Virus record (IMG/VR): IMGVR_UViG_3300025732_000221
Span: 1-27,189 of that record
Origin: a virus
Direction: 5' to 3' (one strand)
Length of the DNA: 27,189 nt
The notes below the pieces were generated by a model. That model was not told where the DNA came from. It was given only the letters and a program-made list of their open reading frames with translations, and made no database searches. The position numbers and the translations under genes are program-made. Shown piece by piece: positions 5,569 through 17,603 of the stretch. Each line of letters starts with the position of its first letter. The stretch's first letter is position 1.

Positions 5569-5761
5569 CCAAAGGCCTGATTGCCACAAGTGCGTGAACC
5601 GTGATCCTTTGCCCATGACGCATCACATCCAGTGCTTGGAGCCCAAGGCTTTGATCTCTGCGAATGCGCGCGCAGCGCAGAAGGGTTGGTTCCATTGGCC
5701 GTGGAACTTTGACCCTATTTGGTTGGAGGAGTGCAGTAAGTATGAGGAGAAAAAAGCATGA
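5555..5761 (+). CDS. small putative zinc-binding phage protein
   Basis: This 68-aa protein has DCHKC near the N-terminus followed by HH and C (HHIQC), a plausible Cys/His zinc site. A conserved C-terminal half reads GWFHWPWNFDPIWLEEC. I recognise this as a widespread small phage protein with spaced C-x2-C ... H-x2-C, but no function is known. The start at 5555 is preferred over 5546 on spacing from AGGG. It overlaps the upstream gene by 14 bases and the downstream gene by the ATGA junction. Confidence 0.7.
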   Translation: MNNSDQRPDCHKCVNRDPLPMTHHIQCLEPKALISANARAAQKGWFHWPWNFDPIWLEECSKYEEKKA

Positions 5762-6042
5762 GCGAACGAGGCATGACCGAACGTTTAGACAAAATGATTG
5801 AAGAGGCGCTGAAGAAGTCCTTTTTGGATGGATACAAGCAGGGGTTTAGGGATGGATATGACCAAGCGTATCCGGATCAGTTGGAGCAGCCTGAGCCAAA
5901 TCAGGAGGGGGTAATTTCAATAACTGCGCCGCAGCCTATTGGATATCTTTGTGAGAACGCTGTGGGGCACCGGTACTTTAGGTGGAAGAAGCCGTCCAGT
6001 GTTTACAAGCCTGTGGCTTTGTATGTGAAGGAACAGAAATGA
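5758..6042 (+). CDS. small phage protein with PVALY-type C-terminal module
   Basis: The 94-aa protein starts MSERGMTERLDKMIEEALKK. A charged helix with FLDGYKQGFRDGYDQAY follows, then a C-terminal module from PQPIGYLCEN to SVYKPVALYV. The same kind of module (W or Y, then xPLYT/xPVALY) appears in the mosaic 335-aa protein downstream at 7293-8300 (VVWMYQD...TPLYT). GAGGAG lies upstream and the start overlaps the previous stop (ATGA). Function is unknown; the construction suggests module shuffling. Confidence 0.7.
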   Translation: MSERGMTERLDKMIEEALKKSFLDGYKQGFRDGYDQAYPDQLEQPEPNQEGVISITAPQPIGYLCENAVGHRYFRWKKPSSVYKPVALYVKEQK

Positions 6043-6266: not shown

Positions 6267-6439
6267 TGGTACGCAAAGTCAGGGGGGAGAACAGGGTAGG
6301 CAAAATTAATTTGTCTTACTCTGAAGTATTGCTTGCTGAGAAGTTAGGCATGACAGTGGAGAAGTATGCGTTGAAGCAGCTTGAATTGATTGCAAAGAAG
6401 CGCAGATGGAAATGGTTTTTTGACAGGAGCAAAGCATGA
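6263..6439 (+). CDS. short basic phage protein (58 aa)
   Basis: This frame encodes MMVRKVRGENRVGKINLSYS followed by a helix with EVLLAEKLGMTVEKYALKQL and a basic-aromatic C-terminus KKRRWKWFFDRSKA. It is joined to both neighbours by ATGA overlaps (6263 and 6436), which strongly supports it despite its size. The pattern, a short strand then helix-turn-helix and a basic tail, resembles a known group of tiny phage proteins, possibly ribbon-helix-helix or DNA binding. That role is inferred. Confidence 0.7.
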   Translation: MMVRKVRGENRVGKINLSYSEVLLAEKLGMTVEKYALKQLELIAKKRRWKWFFDRSKA

Positions 6440-6684
6440 ACAGAGAAGACATTATTCGCATGGCACATGAATCGCATTTAGATGTCTACGGACTTGGTAC
6501 AGACTACGCAAAGTTTGCTGATGCACTTGAACGCTTTGCCGCCCTTGTCGCTTCTGCCGAGCGTGAGGCGTGTGCAAGAGTTTGTGATGACATTAACGCA
6601 AAATATAAATGGCCTGAAGACACAGCAGAACGAGTTGCAAGCCAATGGTGCGCTGATTCCATTCGAGCAAGGGGACAAGCATGA
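6436..6684 (+). CDS. small helical phage protein (MNREDIIRMA family)
   Basis: The 82-aa protein starts MNREDIIRMAHESHLDVYGL. A helix ALERFAALVASAEREACARV and a C-terminal CADSIRARG follow. This is a very common small phage protein family of unknown function. The next gene has the same layout (MTQDEIIEMV...LEAFAKLIAQHERKKA), so the two look like diverged tandem copies. ATGA overlaps join it to both neighbours. A GGAGC ribosome site is visible. Confidence 0.8.
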   Translation: MNREDIIRMAHESHLDVYGLGTDYAKFADALERFAALVASAEREACARVCDDINAKYKWPEDTAERVASQWCADSIRARGQA

Positions 6685-6929: not shown

Positions 6930-7126
6930 CCGTGGAGATCAACAGCTCAAACACCGTAGCGGTTGACCGCGAGTACTACTGGCAACCTATGGACACCTGC
7001 CCCCGTGGCGTCAAGGTTCAACTGCTCGGTGCAGGTGGGGTCGCCGTGTACGGTCAATACCACGGCAAAGACCCGTGGTGGACGCACTGGGCTCCGCTGC
7101 CCGTTAAACCGAAGGAGGACAAATGA
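6926..7126 (+). CDS. DUF551-like small protein
   Basis: This 66-aa protein has the DUF551 pattern: WQPMDTCPRGVKVQLLG, a glycine-rich turn, and an ending WWTHWAPLPVKP. DUF551 proteins are short beta-rich phage proteins of unknown function. It overlaps both neighbours by ATGA. The sequence is complete for the family core. Confidence 0.8.
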   Translation: MTVEINSSNTVAVDREYYWQPMDTCPRGVKVQLLGAGGVAVYGQYHGKDPWWTHWAPLPVKPKEDK

Positions 7127-7296
7127 CCAAAGACGAAGCATTACGCCTTGCATTGGCTTTCAGTTTGTTGTTTTTAACTGGATGCGGAGAATACAAATGT
7201 GTTGAAGGCACGATTTATTCCAAATTAGATAAAGACACTTGGGTTAAATCCGGCCTTTGGAATGAAACTAAATGCATTACAGAGGTGACAAAATGA
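7123..7296 (+). CDS. small lipoprotein with chimeric N-terminus
   Basis: The 57-aa protein starts MTKDEALRLALAFSLLFLTG and continues with Cys21: LTGC is a lipobox, predicting a lipid-modified cysteine. The mature part carries C26 and C51. A strong AAGGAGG site lies 5 bases before the ATG, and ATGA overlaps join both neighbours. Residues 1-10 nearly repeat the next protein (MTQTEALRLALE), and 22 bases at 7135-7156 are identical to 7305-7326. The usual positively charged signal-peptide start is thus replaced by a net neutral one. Comparable phage lipoproteins are small periplasm-facing proteins of unknown role. Confidence 0.7.
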   Translation: MTKDEALRLALAFSLLFLTGCGEYKCVEGTIYSKLDKDTWVKSGLWNETKCITEVTK

Positions 7297-7326
7297 CACA
7301 GACAGAAGCATTACGCCTTGCATTGG
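7135..7326 (+). repeat. 22-bp direct repeat at the 5' ends of two adjacent genes
   Basis: Bases 7135-7156 and 7305-7326 are identical. Each begins 12 bases after the start codon of its gene (7123 and 7293), so the two proteins share the residues EALRLAL. A recombination between such short identical tracts would swap or duplicate a 5' end. Confidence 0.85.
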
Positions 7327-8300
7327 AGGCGTTGAAAGAAGATAGGGCATGGCTTGAAACCGATGCGCCAACCGAAGTTTGGGAAAAGAACAATGAAGCC
7401 ATCACCACCATTAAAGCCGCACTAGAAGCGAAGGATGAGCCTCATAAATGGAAACTTGTTCCAATAGAACCAACCGATGAAATGCTCAAAGCAATGGATG
7501 AATGTTCAATAGAAGGTTATGACGAGCGTTTATATGCTGGTTATGCGGCATCGGTTTACATGGCGGCAGTTGATGTTGCCCCAAGCCCATCACAGCAACA
7601 CGCAGAAGACATAGCAAAATTGGGTTGGCAATATTTTGAGTGTCCTGCCTGTGGCTCAGAAGGAGCAAGAGCGTTTCCTAAACAAGAAGTGAAGGATGAG
7701 CCTGTGGCGCATTCAGTAGTTGCGGGAGCGTTATTTGACTTTATGGGTTGGTTAACTTCACGTGAGAAACGGCTAATTTTGTCTAGTGTTGATGAGGCAA
7801 GCCCAGCGGTGGAAGCCATTACAGAGTTTGCCATCAAGCGCAATTTAAGTCTTAAATATGCAGAAGTGGGCTATTGGACGGAGTTTCTTGCCACCCCACC
7901 ACAGCAAGAAGCGAAGGATGAGCCTGTGGCGTTGAAGATGGATGTGATTGTTGTCAATCTGGTTCGTGAAGGCATCAACAAACATCGAGCCAGAGAACTT
8001 GCAGAGCATTTCATCAAACACACCACCACCCCACCACAGCGCAAGGAGCCAGAGCCAGTGGTGTGGATGTATCAAGACAAAAGCACACATGAAGTGCGCT
8101 TTCAAAAACACATGAGAGGTTTTGTTGACCACGGAGCAACCTACGAAACACCTCTCTACACCACCCCACCACAGCGCAAGCCGCTGACGGATGATGAGAT
8201 TACGCTAATCATTGCTGACTGCGCTAGTTCGCATCAACATACTGATATTCACTTAGCCAGAGCCATTGAACAAGCACACGGCATTAAGGGGGAAGCATGA
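7293..8300 (+). CDS. mosaic phage protein built of linker-joined modules
   Basis: This 335-aa protein is a string of short modules. They are an N-terminal helix (MTQTEALRLALEALKEDRAW), a WKLVPIEPTDEMLKAM unit, a CPAC unit, a VAGALFDFMGW...VDEASPAVEAI unit, a MDVIVVNLVREGINKHRARE unit, a VVWMYQD...TPLYT unit and a RKPLTDDEI C-terminus. They are separated by near-identical linkers EAKDEP(VA) and TPPQ. At DNA level the linkers are almost identical (7425-7442, 7686-7709, 7908-7931; 8024-8045 and 8159-8180). I recognise the separate modules from unrelated phages. The function is unknown. The start at 7293 overlaps the lipoprotein stop (ATGA). Confidence 0.8.
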   Translation: MTQTEALRLALEALKEDRAWLETDAPTEVWEKNNEAITTIKAALEAKDEPHKWKLVPIEPTDEMLKAMDECSIEGYDERLYAGYAASVYMAAVDVAPSPSQQHAEDIAKLGWQYFECPACGSEGARAFPKQEVKDEPVAHSVVAGALFDFMGWLTSREKRLILSSVDEASPAVEAITEFAIKRNLSLKYAEVGYWTEFLATPPQQEAKDEPVALKMDVIVVNLVREGINKHRARELAEHFIKHTTTPPQRKEPEPVVWMYQDKSTHEVRFQKHMRGFVDHGATYETPLYTTPPQRKPLTDDEITLIIADCASSHQHTDIHLARAIEQAHGIKGEA

Positions 8301-8536
8301 CAGACGAACAAGTTGAAAAAATCATCAAGTCAAACATGATGTTGCAAATGAATCTTGCTGGCATAAGAGCAGACTTTGAAGAGGCATTACAGCGCACATG
8401 GGTAGGGCTGACGGATGAGGAAATTCAACAAAGCTACAGACTAAAGTGCAAAGAGTTTGGTCATTGGTTGGATGAAAGAGCGTTTCTTGTTGCCACTAAG
8501 TGGGCAGAAGCCAAACTCAAGGAGCGCAACGGATGA
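8297..8536 (+). CDS. small protein with TWVGLTDEEI module
   Basis: This 79-aa protein starts MTDEQVEKIIKSNMMLQMNL and has ALQRTWVGLTDEEIQQ followed by a helical part ending AKLKERNG. The GLTDEEI unit is related to PLTDDEI of the upstream mosaic protein; the 12 bases GCTGACGGATGA occur in both (8183-8194 and 8407-8418). It overlaps both neighbours by ATGA. Function is unknown. Confidence 0.7.
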   Translation: MTDEQVEKIIKSNMMLQMNLAGIRADFEEALQRTWVGLTDEEIQQSYRLKCKEFGHWLDERAFLVATKWAEAKLKERNG

Positions 8537-12018: not shown

Positions 12019-13559
12019 ATTTTGAAGCCTTTTTCGGTATGTTTGGGTAGCACTAAATGCAGAGTTTTCTTGGCGCGGGTGATTCCCACGTAAAAGAGCC
12101 GGTGAACGTTGTCCCCGTTACTTGCGTACTCTTTCGCAAATTTAGGTGAGAGGTCCATGAGCAGCAGCACGTTGTCCGCCTCGCCACCTTTAGCGCCGTG
12201 GATCGTGGACAGTTTGATTCGGCCCATGGTTGAGAGCTTGGTTCCGCGGCGCAGGACTGCGGTGAGGTAGTCGCGCTTGTCTTCGCTGATGCGGGACAGG
12301 GCTTGGTGCCAGATTGCATCGGTTTGTAGGCCGAAACTGTTCTGGAGATCCTTGATGCTGTATTCAAGCAGCGGATCGCCTTTGAAGGTTCGGTGGCCCT
12401 TGGTAATGAATTCGCCGCCAATGTATTTGTAGACGTTTTTGATCTCATCGCCGTGCAGGAACTCCCCTTTGCGCAGCTTTTCCCACGTCTGTACGGCCTT
12501 TAAAAGTGTCAGGCTAAGGCTTGGTACTCCGGAGCGCTCAAAAAGCACGCCAGAGGCCCGTAGCCACTCGTGGACAGGGTTTAAAAGGTAGTTGGTGCTG
12601 CCCATGATGAGCCATTGGCCGTTATCGATGGGCACATCTTCAAAGCGGTGGTAGGTCATGACCGATCCCTCGAAGTCACGGGGCTTCCATTCTTTCTCTT
12701 GGCGCTGCTTGATCTGCTGCACAACACGGTTGGCAAGGCGGTGAACGATTGCGGGGACGCGGTAGGACTGGTTGAGGACGGTGATCTGACCCTCAAAAGA
12801 CAGGAAGCTCTTGACATCAGCTCCTGCCCACGTGAATACTGCCTGATCGTCGTCTCCGGCGAGGAATACCCGTTTCGATTTTTTAGCAAGAGCTTCGACA
12901 AGCTGCCACTGCAAGCGGGACAGATCCTGTGCTTCGTCAACAATCAGCACTTCTAAAGAAGGCAGCCGCTCAGTCTGCACCACAATCATTTCCAGAAGGT
13001 CGGTGAAGTCAAGCAGCTCTTTGCTGCGTTTGTAGTGGCGGTAGGAGCGCTCTACAAATTCAAAGTGATGCCATTCGATGTCGAGGCCGCACTGGTTGTA
13101 GTGTTCGCGCAGATCCACTCCGCGGATGCGGGCCAGATTGATTTCGTTGAGTATTGGGTTGTCGGCCTTGGCCATGTCCACATCGTCTTCTTGGACCACG
13201 TTCAATTGGATGCCGGCTTGTGCAGCAAACTCGCGGTAGTCCTCTGGCTTCATCATGAAGTCAACTTTGACGGCAAGGCAGTGGAAAGCCAAGCTGTGCA
13301 GGGTTCTGAAGTAGGGGAAGTCGGTGCGCGCGTTGAGCGCAGGGAACTTCTCAATCGCTCGGTCCTTGGCCTCTGTTGCGGCTTTCTTGGTGAACGAGAA
13401 GTAGCCGATTTGCATAGGCGAAAGACCGGTCGATAACTCGTGGTCAACGACATTTAGAAGATATGTTGTTTTTCCGGAGCCTAGTTACGGAGGGCCAAAG
13501 ACCTTGCGGATGCGATCCGCAGGCTTCAGCCCCTGCTCCTTTCCTATTTCAGTGTTCAT
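12015..13559 (-). pseudogene. UvrD-like SF1 helicase with in-frame TAA inside Walker A
   Basis: From ATG 13559 the frame encodes MNTEIGKEQGLKPADRIRKV then FGPP, a TAA stop (13485-13487), and LGSGKTTYLL onwards to 12015. Without the six bases TAACTA the P-loop would be GPPGSGKTT. Everything else is intact: DEAQD, GDDDQAVFTWAGA, QSYRVP, STIHGAKGGEADNV and FYVGITRAKK. Thus it is a UvrD/PcrA-like 3'-5' helicase acting beside the polymerase. The first ATG after the stop (13415) would give a 466-aa product lacking the P-loop; no ATG, GTG or TTG lies between. It overlaps the HNH gene by 11 bases. It may be a true lesion, recoding, or a sequence error. Confidence 0.85.
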
Positions 13560-13956
13560 CAGATGTCCCATGCCAGCGAATGTGATTGTGTAGTCGTAGG
13601 TGTTCAGACTGCGTCATTACCAAAAGGTTTGACGGGTCGTTATTCCATTTGTTCCCATCGCGGTGATGAACAATTTCATTTGGAAGTAGTTTGCGGCCAA
13701 GCGCTTGTTCAATGACGACACGATGCATGTGCCGGCCTTTGAACTTGATGTAGTTGTCTCGACTTCCTGTGTATCGAAGACTATTGGGGTCTCGAAAAAA
13801 AGATCGACGCCGTTGTTCGGCAGAATCAAGGAGTCGGGCATTGTGGCCATTGATAAACCGAAGAGGTTCACCCTTTGTTTGACCCCGAGAAGATCGAGTG
13901 CGTTTTGCGATAGGTGTTGCCATACCGCAGCCACACTCACAGAGTTTGACTTGCAT
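13549..13956 (-). CDS. HNH homing endonuclease
   Basis: This 135-aa protein has an N-terminal zinc-knuckle-like part (LCECGCG...FINGHNARLL) and an HNH_3-type nuclease core, HMHRVVIEQALGRKL then IVHHRDGNKWNNDPSNL (His97, His98, Asn110 region) and His119. Such enzymes cut a conserved sequence and spread into it. A good ribosome site (AAAGGGGAAAAC) precedes the ATG. The gene sits between a conserved small gene and the helicase, whose Walker A is disrupted about 65 bases downstream. I see no flanking group I intron core, so it looks free-standing. Confidence 0.9.
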   Translation of the reverse strand: MQVKLCECGCGMATPIAKRTRSSRGQTKGEPLRFINGHNARLLDSAEQRRRSFFRDPNSLRYTGSRDNYIKFKGRHMHRVVIEQALGRKLLPNEIVHHRDGNKWNNDPSNLLVMTQSEHLRLHNHIRWHGTSDEH

Positions 13957-14058: not shown

Positions 14059-14304
14059 TCAGTCATATTCCTCGTCCCACAGGTCGTCGGGCCAAACAAG
14101 GATAGGTGTATCGGGGCCCATGTATGCGCCCTCGATGTTGAACTCAATGTATTCACGTGCTTCGTCTGCTTCCATGCCATCACGCTTCATGAGCGTGTCA
14201 CGAATGGCCTCGGCGTCATAGACCAGAACTGATATACGTTCGCCGTTGCCCCAGATGAAGGCAGGGCCGATCACCGCGTCGTCGTGTCCGTCAATTTTCA
14301 ACAT
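14059..14304 (-). CDS. small acidic phage protein, function unknown
   Basis: This 81-aa acidic protein starts MLKIDGHDDAVIGPAFIWGN and contains AREYIEFNIEGAYMGPDTPI then LVWPDDLW. It is a recognisable, well-conserved small phage protein often near replication genes, but without known function. Its ATG overlaps the primase stop by one base (TGATG). Transcription would continue into the HNH gene after a 102-bp gap. Confidence 0.8.
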   Translation of the reverse strand: MLKIDGHDDAVIGPAFIWGNGERISVLVYDAEAIRDTLMKRDGMEADEAREYIEFNIEGAYMGPDTPILVWPDDLWDEEYD

Positions 14305-15836
14305 CAGAATGGGCTCCCTTGTGTGCGTTTGGTTTGTGACTCGAACGGCGCGTCCTGTTTCTGGAAGCGCGGAATACGCCAGCAGCGCACAGTGCGGCCT
14401 TTGAGGAATAGGGAAATCGGTTCACCTCCCATGTCACGCAGACGCTGAGCCATCTTCGGAGCCGACAGGCCCATGAAGTTGTTGCGCTTCAAGTGCCCCT
14501 CAAGGTCCTTGATCCGGAAATATGTTTTCGCTTCATCGACATCCGTCCATGGGCGGCCCATGAGCATCTCTTCGCGGTCCATTGCTTCTTGCATGTGCGT
14601 CGTGAACTCTTCGAGCAGATCCATGAAGCGGCCAGTGATGCTTGTGTCCTCTGGTGCGTCGGTGATTTGCTCTGTCTCCACCATTTCTTTGAGAAGGGCG
14701 TTGAGCAGTTGTTCCCAGTCCTGCTTGCGCAAGGTGGGCGGCAGCACGTTGAGCTTTTCAAGGCATGCTTTTTGGAAAGCCACTTGCGTGAAGAGGCTCT
14801 CGGTATCGAGTTCTACGCGGCGGCCGTTGACATCCAAGAACCACAGGGGTGGCTCACTGGCGTACTTGGACAGCGCTGCTATCTGAGGCGCATCAGGACC
14901 ATTGGTTCCGATGCCAAATTTCCTTGATCGACATAGGCCCGCATTGCAAAAGCTATTGAGCGGCGCGTCTTTGCACTTGTAAAGGTATTCTTTCTTGCCA
15001 ACTTGCTTGACGAGGATTTGGACCTCGTTGTTCGGGAGCGGCGGCGCAACGTACTTGAAGTTGTACTCGACCATTTTGTCTTCCCAAGAGCCGGGGAATG
15101 CTCGTTTAAGAAAGACTCCAATGTTGAAAAGTCCATTGTTACGGGTGCCCTCGGGAAAGCCTTGGGCGCACAAAGCCTGTAGGCAAGGCGGACCATCTTT
15201 GACGGGACTCTCCGCTTGTTTCGGCGGCTCTGGAACAATGAGCGGCAGCTCTTGGACGTTGGTCTCGTAGAGGCCATAGAACTCTTCAAGCGTGGCCGCG
15301 GACCCGTCGGCATTGAATGCATACCGCGTCCCGTTGTCACCCCCGAAGTACGGGAGGTTGAGGAAGTTTCCGGTGTCTCCGCGCTCGACAAGGATCTCGG
15401 ACTGCTTAGGAAAAATCTCACGGCCCGCTTCACCGAGAAGCGCTGCCGCATTTTTAAGGTATTCCTGAAAGTCGCGCGCCGGAGCCGGCTCTCTAGTGAA
15501 TAAAAAGACATGTGCTCCTCCTGATTTACTGCGACAAACAACCATTGGCAGTTTCAGCTGCGCAACTTTCTCCACCAAGCCTTTATGGTCGAGCGGATAC
15601 TGGTCGATATCAATACAACCCCAGATACAAGTGTTATCAGCCCTAATAGGAATAATCCCAAGGGAAGGGTCCACACCCTCAAGATGCTGGACCCAGAGGT
15701 CGTCGGTAGGTGGCTTTCTAACCACGGTGGCCTGCCCCGCTTGTTTTCCATCACCGCGCTCCTTTTTGATACGGTAGGTTCCGTAAGCGATATCCAGACC
15801 GCTGAATATCGCTTTGAATTTTGTTATATCGGTCAT
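14304..15836 (-). CDS. archaeo-eukaryotic-type primase (TOTE-like)
   Basis: The 510-aa protein contains the AEP primase core: WGCIDIDQY with Asp76 and Asp78 as metal ligands, then SKSGGAHVFLF with His109, then ERGDTGNFLNLPYF (151-164). A second part, RNNGLFNIGVFLKRAFP with cysteines at 288, 297 and 302 (YKCKDAP...FCNAGLC), may bind zinc or an Fe-S cluster. The C-terminus looks like a winged helix. It should synthesise primers for the adjacent family A polymerase. The ribosome site is weak (GAGTGA). No hexameric helicase domain is fused, unlike T7 gp4. Confidence 0.88.
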   Translation of the reverse strand: MTDITKFKAIFSGLDIAYGTYRIKKERGDGKQAGQATVVRKPPTDDLWVQHLEGVDPSLGIIPIRADNTCIWGCIDIDQYPLDHKGLVEKVAQLKLPMVVCRSKSGGAHVFLFTREPAPARDFQEYLKNAAALLGEAGREIFPKQSEILVERGDTGNFLNLPYFGGDNGTRYAFNADGSAATLEEFYGLYETNVQELPLIVPEPPKQAESPVKDGPPCLQALCAQGFPEGTRNNGLFNIGVFLKRAFPGSWEDKMVEYNFKYVAPPLPNNEVQILVKQVGKKEYLYKCKDAPLNSFCNAGLCRSRKFGIGTNGPDAPQIAALSKYASEPPLWFLDVNGRRVELDTESLFTQVAFQKACLEKLNVLPPTLRKQDWEQLLNALLKEMVETEQITDAPEDTSITGRFMDLLEEFTTHMQEAMDREEMLMGRPWTDVDEAKTYFRIKDLEGHLKRNNFMGLSAPKMAQRLRDMGGEPISLFLKGRTVRCWRIPRFQKQDAPFESQTKRTQGSPF

Positions 15837-15923: not shown

Positions 15924-16688
15924 TCAGAACGGTGCTGCGTCAGGGCCTGCGCCCTCGTGCTCGTGCTTGACCTTTACTTCGCCTGCGCCAACTTGCGAGG
16001 CGAAGGACTTGGCTGCCTTGTAGGCATTCATGTCTTCAACAGGTCCAATCTTCTCGACTTCCCAGCCGAACCATTTGCCCTTGTCGTTGGACTCGGCCTG
16101 TGTCGTCAGACGGTAGACCTGTGAGTACATCGGAGGCGTGAAGGGGCCGTTGGCGCCCATCATTTTTGTGGACATCATCATGCTGTTCCACTTGCGTGAC
16201 TTCTTCAGCTGCGTTGACTTCATGGTGATCAATGCAGGCTCAGGGATGCCTGACTCATTGATGATCATCACGTAGTGGTTGGCAGTGTTCTCGATGTAGT
16301 TGCCGTTATCGAGATAGTCTTTGTTGTCGCCCGGTTCGCGGTGCGTGCGGCTCAAAATATCAGACGTGGCGGGATAGATATTCATCGGGGCGCCAGAGCC
16401 TGAACCACGTGGAGCCCACTCAATGTACTGACGTACATAAGCGACGGGCAGCACAGTGATGCCTTTTTTGCCGTCATACAACTGACCGGTCACGCTGTTG
16501 AGGATCATGCCGGGCAAAGCGCCGTCAATCTCACCCACTTCTGGGCTTGTGTTGGTCAAGAGCTTCAGGAATGGCAGGGCGAAATCGTCCTGACTCATGT
16601 TCTCAAAACCGCTCTGAGCGTCCTGCTCAAAGTCACTTGCCAAAGCCAATGCGTTGGTCTCTTTTACTGCTACTTCGTTCTTAGCCAT
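15924..16688 (-). CDS. conserved replication-module protein, candidate ssDNA-binding
   Basis: The 254-aa protein starts MAKNEVAVKETNALALASDF. It has DDFALPFLKLLTNTSPEV, GMILNSVTGQLYDG and a beta-rich central region with YIENTANHYVM, and ends in an acidic tail (HEHEGAGPDAAPF). This is a conserved phage family adjacent to replication genes. The beta-rich core and acidic flexible C-terminus are typical of single-stranded DNA-binding proteins, but I do not know an assay for this family. AAGGAAAT precedes the ATG. An 87-bp gap with a small palindrome (15909-15922) separates it from the primase. Confidence 0.75.
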   Translation of the reverse strand: MAKNEVAVKETNALALASDFEQDAQSGFENMSQDDFALPFLKLLTNTSPEVGEIDGALPGMILNSVTGQLYDGKKGITVLPVAYVRQYIEWAPRGSGSGAPMNIYPATSDILSRTHREPGDNKDYLDNGNYIENTANHYVMIINESGIPEPALITMKSTQLKKSRKWNSMMMSTKMMGANGPFTPPMYSQVYRLTTQAESNDKGKWFGWEVEKIGPVEDMNAYKAAKSFASQVGAGEVKVKHEHEGAGPDAAPF

Positions 16689-16705
16689 TTTTCAATTTCC
16701 TTAGT

Positions 16706-17260
16706 TCATGCTGATTTGATGGTTGCTTTTTGGCCCACGTATGCGCCGAAAAGCTCTGTAGGGAACTCGTTGCCGCGTTCCACTTGCTCGCGAACCCAAG
16801 CTTTCAAGGTCTGGGGTTCGATCTTCTGCGCTTGCTCGACTGGGTAGTTTTGCTCGCGCAGTTGATTCAGGAGTGATTCGCACAGTTGGTCTTCGCCGCG
16901 ACCAAACCGTACTGACACTGTGTTCTTGATGATGTCATCGAAGCCGTGCTCACGCAGCCACTCGTAGGCCTGTGCGCGCTTCTCTTCCTTGATGCTTGCG
17001 CTGTAGAAAGGCTTGATGTCAATCTGGCTGCCGTCAGCCATCTTGAACGATTTCATGCCAAGCTCATCGAGCATCGCGGGGATCGTATCTTCCAGAAGCT
17101 TGCGCTGCTGCTCTTTACGTTCCTTGAGGACGTCTTCAATGTCGTCAATCTCTTTTTCCAATTCCTTGGCACGTTTGGCCAAGGCGCCAACTGAGGACAG
17201 GTCCTCGTTCTTGACTTGAAGCGCGCCTGCGTCTTCTTCAAAAATGCTAACGTTACTCAT
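16706..17260 (-). CDS. conserved phage replication-module protein, coiled coil
   Basis: The 184-aa protein starts MSNVSIFEEDAGALQVKNED. It has a long coiled coil (about 20-65, KRAKELEKEIDDIEDVLKER...), a segment GMKSFKMADGSQIDIKPFYS and a C-terminal part with LKAWVREQVERG...PTELFGAYVGQKATIKSA. I recognise it as a common, uncharacterised phage family with replication genes. The start overlaps the previous gene by 8 bases and has GGAGAAAGAG upstream. An upstream in-frame ATG would lie further inside the neighbour. Confidence 0.8.
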   Translation of the reverse strand: MSNVSIFEEDAGALQVKNEDLSSVGALAKRAKELEKEIDDIEDVLKERKEQQRKLLEDTIPAMLDELGMKSFKMADGSQIDIKPFYSASIKEEKRAQAYEWLREHGFDDIIKNTVSVRFGRGEDQLCESLLNQLREQNYPVEQAQKIEPQTLKAWVREQVERGNEFPTELFGAYVGQKATIKSA

Positions 17261-17603
17261 CTCTTTCTCCATTCTCGGTGATATCAAGTTTAACTGGGAT
17301 ATACATCTTCTCACGACGATCCCACTTCAACACATTTACTCTGCCAGAGTTGTATGCTGCCGCAACTGCGCAACATAGTCCAATGGCCACGGGGTCTCCG
17401 GTCAGCAGCAAAAAGTCCCGATCCGAAAAGTTACGAAGCTTGCGCTTGAGCAACCGGATTGTTGGTACTGTGGAAAATGCAATCTGGACATTGGACGGTA
17501 AAAGCACCGTTGGGTCCCCAAATTTCATTGCACCAGCAATATCGTGATTGGGCATCTCTTGTACGACGTACACCAGAGGGAACTGTTCATTATTTGTTGT
17601 CAC
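17253..17603 (-). CDS. conserved phage protein (FLLLTGDPVAIG family)
   Basis: The 116-aa protein uses a GTG start preceded by AAGAAAGGAGAG, a strong ribosome site. The sequence includes FSTVPTIRLLKRKLRNF then DFLLLTGDPVAIGLCCAV and NVLKWDRREKMYIPVKL. This pattern is widespread in uncultured phages at the head of replication operons; its role is unknown. It is the first gene after the leftward promoter at 17636-17663 and overlaps the next gene by 8 bases. Confidence 0.8.
   Translation of the reverse strand: MTTNNEQFPLVYVVQEMPNHDIAGAMKFGDPTVLLPSNVQIAFSTVPTIRLLKRKLRNFSDRDFLLLTGDPVAIGLCCAVAAAYNSGRVNVLKWDRREKMYIPVKLDITENGERDE

Follow-up and report, generated by a model that had tools for sequence, protein, structure and literature searches.

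Shufflons and integrons, in which short repeated sites adjoin interchangeable coding segments, depend on a dedicated recombinase and operate through inversion or attC sites. For lambdoid phages, short conserved boundary sequences have been described (Susskind and Botstein 1978; Clark 2001, cited in PMC3029335), that is, short DNA shared at mosaic joints and proposed to serve as homologous-recombination sites; according to the passages of PMC3029335 drawn on here, such DNA is often invoked in phage mosaics and seldom seen, so that random joining is the explanation commonly favoured. Recent exchange of protein fragments between phages across taxa, expected to be more frequent in accessory proteins of unknown function, is reported in the corresponding sections of Smug et al. 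2023 (PMC10684548), a study of functional classes at the protein level; the word "linker" is absent from its main text, and the sections consulted here mention no DNA-fixed joints. Finally, Ea22 of lambdoid phages is an accessory early protein in which a conserved part is joined to unrelated C-terminal variants, and excerpts of the Ea22 literature term DUF551 a portable domain (PMC7093339, PMC10834534). The subject of the present text is an open reading frame (ORF) at positions 7293-8300 of a viral sequence of 27,189 bases, the single IMG/VR record IMGVR_UViG_3300025732_000221, which as a whole is referred to as the window.

Here, I show that this ORF belongs to a large family of environmental phage genes having the common frame start-[V1]-linker A-[V2]-linker B-[V3]-end, in which V1 to V3 are variable slots. 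The preferred reading, given a probability of about 0.8, is that this mosaic accessory gene trades modules through linkers of 20-50 base pairs (bp), by homologous or annealing recombination. Short DNA is shared at mosaic joints, as in the lambdoid boundary sequences, yet the joints here are intragenic, keep the frame, occupy several slots and recur in unrelated contigs. Protein fragments have been exchanged recently across taxa, as in the domain shuffling of Smug et al. 2023. DUF551 also fills a slot here (locus L118), which recalls the one-sided swaps of Ea22, although there are several swap points against the one of Ea22, for which the excerpts used mention no fixed linker DNA; no Ea22 family match was obtained for the window ORF in Pfam or NCBIfam, nor in Pfam for 111 further ORFs. 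Unlike in shufflons and integrons, neither a dedicated recombinase nor inversion or attC sites were found. Literature searches on mosaicism, linkers, module exchange and Ea22, covering open-licence PMC papers, listed none that by title or abstract describes the family, and a search for five linker peptides found no paper with any of them; as far as these literature searches show, in-frame joints fixed as DNA, at several slots of one gene and in unrelated phages, constitute a new variant.

The layout of the ORF is as follows, all features being on the plus strand.

7293..8300, + strand: mosaic ORF of 335 amino acids, with no Pfam family above cut-off; from 7417 on recovered at 100% in a second assembly (L087)
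7293..7337, + strand: start connector MTQTEALRLALEALK; a near copy opens the preceding ORF (7121-7156)
7338..7397, + strand: variable segment V1, inside a predicted helical hairpin; with its connectors, 92-98% DNA common to L021, L023, L027, L028 and L035
7398..7442, + strand: linker A, AITTIKAALEAKDEP; many BLAST ends at 7442, codon fixation
7443..7592, + strand: module HKWKLVPIEPTDEMLKAMDE..., with a weak phrog_5913 match
7593..7685, + strand: module with CPACGSEGA, zinc-ribbon-like by eye; separate BLAST matches 7593/7623-7688 in L045, L056, L057 and L059-L062
7686..7709, + strand: linker A copy, EVKDEPVA; repeat comparison, BLAST ends
7710..7889, + strand: module HSVVAGALFDFMGWLTSR..., with 52 related loci and varied partners
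7890..7931, + strand: joined linkers B and A, ATPPQQEAKDEPVA; repeats, BLAST ends, identity switch
7932..8023, + strand: module LKMDVIVVNLVREGINKHRARELAEHFIKH, a predicted helical hairpin (predicted local distance difference test, pLDDT, 81-94)
8024..8062, + strand: linker B plus EPEPV, TTPPQRKEPEPVV; repeats, BLAST ends
8063..8149, + strand: module WMYQDKSTHEVRFQKHMRGFVDHGATYET; 8027-8178 is 100% identical in L014
8150..8203, + strand: linker B plus connector, PLYTTPPQRKPLTDDEI; repeats, degenerate scan, codon fixation
8204..8257, + strand: module V3, TLIIADCASSHQHTDIHL; BLAST ends
8258..8300, + strand: end connector ARAIEQAHGIKGEA and stop, the stop overlapping the next ORF start (ATGA)

A sequence-only reading of the window had proposed that the linkers EAKDEP(VA) and TPPQ recur between unrelated modules of this ORF with nearly identical DNA, and both observations were borne out, more strongly than the letters of the window alone could show. 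The linker-A repeats 7683-7709 and 7905-7931 are equal at 26 of 27 bases, those of linker B (8024-8045 and 8159-8180) show no difference over 22 bases, and each linker has a third copy, at 7422-7448 (A, partial) and 7889-7910 (B). A search with the module peptides, linkers left out, returned 72 related loci, each covering different parts of the ORF (best segment 34-100% identity). In 43 aligned canonical ORFs, chosen from 72 ORFs for carrying connectors, the consensus is MTKDEALRLALEALE-[V1]-AITAIKAALEAKDEPVAW-[V2]-PLYTTPPQRTWVGLTDEE-[V3]-RAIEAKLKEKNT, the three slots being filled by unrelated sequence; the window ORF is a longer member in which linkers A and B are repeated. A full family member also lies at 1771-2274 of a circular Manatee Spring record (L305, MW202879.1), where no gene is annotated.

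The linkers are alike as DNA beyond what the protein would need. A pattern for EAKDEPVA (linker A), degenerate at every synonymous site, was scanned against 2.9 million viral contigs of IMG/VR, giving 108 stretches and 112 matches, all 112 inside open frames and 94 with the same 23 bases; in 84,980 bacterial and archaeal species it gave 16 stretches with 17 matches scattered in unrelated proteins, none of the 17 having the 23-base DNA. For YTTPPQR (linker B), 71 are identical as DNA among at least 107 matches listed, whereas the control phage motif AEREACAR, scanned in the same manner, shows 76 DNA variants in 121 matches listed, the commonest occurring 16 times. Incidentally, positions 6436-6684 of the window encode a member of a second widespread phage family (FAALV.SAEREACARVC...AIRARG), with variable flanks and a shared motif that is not DNA-fixed.

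Over 273 non-identical linker ORFs, the probability that two copies have the same DNA is 0.46-0.66 for the start connector, EAKDEPVA, AITAIKAAL, TTPPQR and KPLTDEE, whereas codon use in these ORFs' own modules would predict 2e-6 to 2e-3; LAQPEQEPVA, EALKLALEAL, WVGLTDEE, AIEAKLKEKNT and ARAIEAAHGIKE are less fixed (0.05-0.19), yet above expectation. Likewise, in pairs unrelated on both sides (n=3,537), same-residue codon identity is 0.68-1.00 in the linker versus ~0.24-0.65 in modules, nucleotide identity outside the linker is ~0.25 and the linker edges are sharp, a single flank codon adjoining the AITAIKAAL block reaching a codon identity of up to 0.81. Synonymous sites, whose divergence in linkers, along with a fixed module order, would have spoken against exchange, are therefore near-invariant in linkers and not in modules. 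Codon bias is ruled out as the cause because a given residue is fixed to different codons at different places in one linker, the two Glu of linker A being GAA in 112/112 and GAG in 110/112. A derivation of linker A from MKPVAW gene starts via a one-base deletion is ruled out too, the codons being different.

The modules, for their part, are promiscuous. When the ORF was compared with the 72 loci by BLAST, 174 matches resulted, with ends clustering at 7442, 7709, 7932, 8150-8165 and 8183; in the 273 non-identical ORFs, 63.5% of 649 distinct homology ends fall within 6 nucleotides of a listed connector, compared with 24.4% (maximum 28.8%) of random positions, so that module boundaries do coincide with linkers. 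Some match to the window is present in 240 of 285 loci. Of 47 matching loci listed, four are the same phage; the 43 others, some of which are one contig fetched twice, have 0-313 nucleotides of similarity outside the ORF, and many of them carry a window module at 91-98% DNA identity. A distant relative (27-33%) of the window DNA polymerase was found in 4 of 30 such records. Modules searched alone recur in other contigs and in other combinations. Module 7710-7889 has 52 relatives, of which 48 were analysed and 4 with clipped flanks dropped; it has 19 upstream partners (in a separate family-wide clustering, the 19 upstream clusters are a lower bound, start-connector ORFs being all lumped together) and 22 downstream partners, with 29 combinations in the 41 copies having both flanks. 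It even stands directly after a start (L344, L346) or at the protein end (L326, L333), and a fixed module order is thus not what is found.

The position of the exchange can be narrowed further. In pairs sharing just one neighbour (40 upstream-only, 37 downstream-only), identity switches within the 24-nucleotide linker: the upstream linker codons track the upstream module and the last Ala/Trp codons the downstream one (0.92/0.97 vs 0.57/0.55). The proposal that linkers are recombination joints for module exchange gains support from this switch and from the promiscuity of the modules.

The mechanism envisaged is that of an accessory phage gene assembled from small autonomous modules, whose joints are short in-frame linkers of about 20-50 bp with DNA common to many unrelated phages. 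An encounter of two phages, or of two adjacent copies within a genome, would let strands pair or anneal in a linker, where crossing over would replace the module on one side and preserve the reading frame. The linkers, passing between genomes, would belong to a recent common pool and their DNA would stay identical, a consequence of exchange, while the modules, not recombining with each other, would differ completely. The enzyme would belong to general recombination, homologous or by single-strand annealing, and would come from the phage or be the host's RecA. General recombination is able to use 20-30 bp.

Several observations weigh against exchange through linkers. As many as 36.5% of homology ends lie away from any listed connector, and the pairs counted are not independent. 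Fixation is far lower in the alternative linker LAQPEQEPVA (0.066) and the start variant EALKLALEAL (0.052). Replacement changes in connectors run at 0.25-0.66 of the neutral rate (up to 2 mismatches), or 0.31-0.71 when up to about 21% mismatches are allowed; protein selection therefore acts too, and the connector peptide does tolerate change. Searches of the window for an annealing protein of the RecT/ERF family, a serine recombinase or a tyrosine integrase found none; among 36 long records, an ERF annealing protein is present in 8 and RecT in none. RecT (0/36) and tyrosine integrase (2/36) were rejected as explanations of the exchange. Moreover, the searches turned up no cultured phage that has the complete architecture, and the family records are fragments, nearly all members being metagenomic.

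A more ambitious reading, which is possible and held only tentatively, is that the linkers are maintained as DNA for their function as joints. Unrelated phages would then share, community-wide, a combinatorial pool of modules (anti-restriction domains included) through a few standard joints, in a manner resembling the combination of V, D and J segments, and an annealing protein adapted to 20-50 bp of homology might be involved.

Purifying selection on the linker, be it for the peptide, messenger RNA structure, an internal ribosome site or a codon effect, might instead keep the DNA while the modules just diverge fast. Connectors are always in frame and their replacement changes are below neutral, as seen above; moreover, linker A has, as read from its letters, a ribosome-binding-site-like AAGGA 7 nucleotides before a GTG, and the end connectors do resemble a ribosome site, an ATGA overlap included. 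This explanation is nonetheless improbable. Linker B and AITAIKAAL have no ribosome-like site, which leaves an internal ribosome site unsupported as a general cause of linker identity; synonymous positions are frozen to position-specific codons, those of the similarly widespread AEREACAR are not; and unrelated contigs carry different modules on one side of a linker with 91-98% identical DNA on the other, which fast module divergence cannot explain.

Less probable still is a dedicated site-specific recombinase, or a homing nuclease cutting the linkers, that would move cassettes in the manner of a shufflon or an integron but with direct repeats. The sites are indeed short, near-invariant and repeated at joints, and an HNH endonuclease is encoded in the window (13549-13956). 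However, a shufflon carries its cognate serine or tyrosine recombinase with the array, and in the 36 long records, which are fragments, these enzymes were found in 0 and 2, respectively, and neither in the window. Nor do sites lie outside the reading frame or inverted: near-matches to five connectors (up to 2 mismatches) are in frame in 22/22, 110/110, 99/99, 60/60 and 81/81 cases, with 0 outside open frames, and the same behaviour is seen for several linkers of unrelated sequence.

Metagenome-assembly chimeras, joined where k-mers are shared, are very improbable: family members here are nearly all metagenomic and two contigs begin inside connectors (window 7417 in L087 and 8187 in L037), but the ORF from 7417 on is 100% identical in L087, 16 of 86 junctions occur in at least two contigs with different sample ids (possibly different sites within a single project), each shared module is internal on either side, hence two joins would be needed, both frame-keeping, and the circular record L305 has the same architecture. 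L087 and L037 are the same phage from other samples; because their contigs begin inside connectors, linker repeats probably break virome assemblies.

Three neighbouring ORFs are relevant to the family.

7123..7296, + strand: neighbour ORF with the start connector (repeat comparison)
8297..8536, + strand: neighbour ORF with the RTWVGLTDEEI connector and a KLKERNG end (ORF list, repeat comparison)
5758..6042, + strand: neighbour ORF with module GYLCENAVGHRYFRWKKPSSVYKPVALY; the same module lies between linkers in L236

The clearest relative is 7123-7296, with its start connector matching at 83% of 36 bases (7121-7156 vs 7291-7326). The claim that 5758-6042 and 8297-8536 share related modules with 7293-8300 survives in part: 8297-8536 has the LTDEE connector (8183-8201 vs 8407-8425, 17 of 19 bases) and the module of 5758-6042 is framed by linkers in L236, but 5758-6042 itself shares only a 14-nucleotide repeat with 7293-8300. 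At 8280-8300, the end connectors (KEKNT or KGEA plus stop) form a purine-rich, ribosome-site-like stretch with an ATGA overlap with the next start; from these two features, gene junctions may be further exchange points.

Elsewhere, the window encodes a family A DNA polymerase, a UvrD helicase, a primase, an SNF2 helicase and an exonuclease. The closest record to the polymerase is Phage DSL-LC04 (73.7% identity; Dishui Lake; host listed as Gammaproteobacteria). The primase has a TOTE-type AEP domain and adjoins Pam3 gp33- and gp34-like proteins (14304-15836 and 15924-17314).

Predicted structures are of low confidence as wholes. The model of a 122-amino-acid member (pLDDT 76, predicted template-modelling score, pTM, 0.36) consists of a helical hairpin, a strand-helix-strand and a helical hairpin, with linkers at the joints; in that of the window ORF (pLDDT 67.5, pTM 0.31), confidence is lowest at three internal linkers (block means 33-36) and not low at the first (79) and last (75-77) ones. 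Searches for function in Pfam, PHROGs, NCBIfam and PADLOC gave almost nothing: PADLOC matches, being single and weak, were ignored, and ArdA was matched at 6.6e-4 by one of 52 members. In L129 (3488-3931, minus strand), a complete Lar restriction-alleviation domain forms a cassette in the V2 slot, flanked by linkers A and B (31.2 bits vs a Pfam cut-off of 28.6); the cut-off is passed by this L129 module only and not by the window ORF. The product is probably, on weak grounds, a host-interaction or anti-defence accessory protein; given Lar in L129 and DUF551 in L118, an anti-defence role is a lead, not a result.

To sum up, the mosaic architecture helps account for the failure of protein-family databases to capture such ORFs. 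It also touches the old question of how the sharp joints of phage mosaics arise, for here boundary DNA is plain, intragenic and present in many phages; since the linkers can be recoded without changing the protein, homology-guided joining may be tested directly against random joining.
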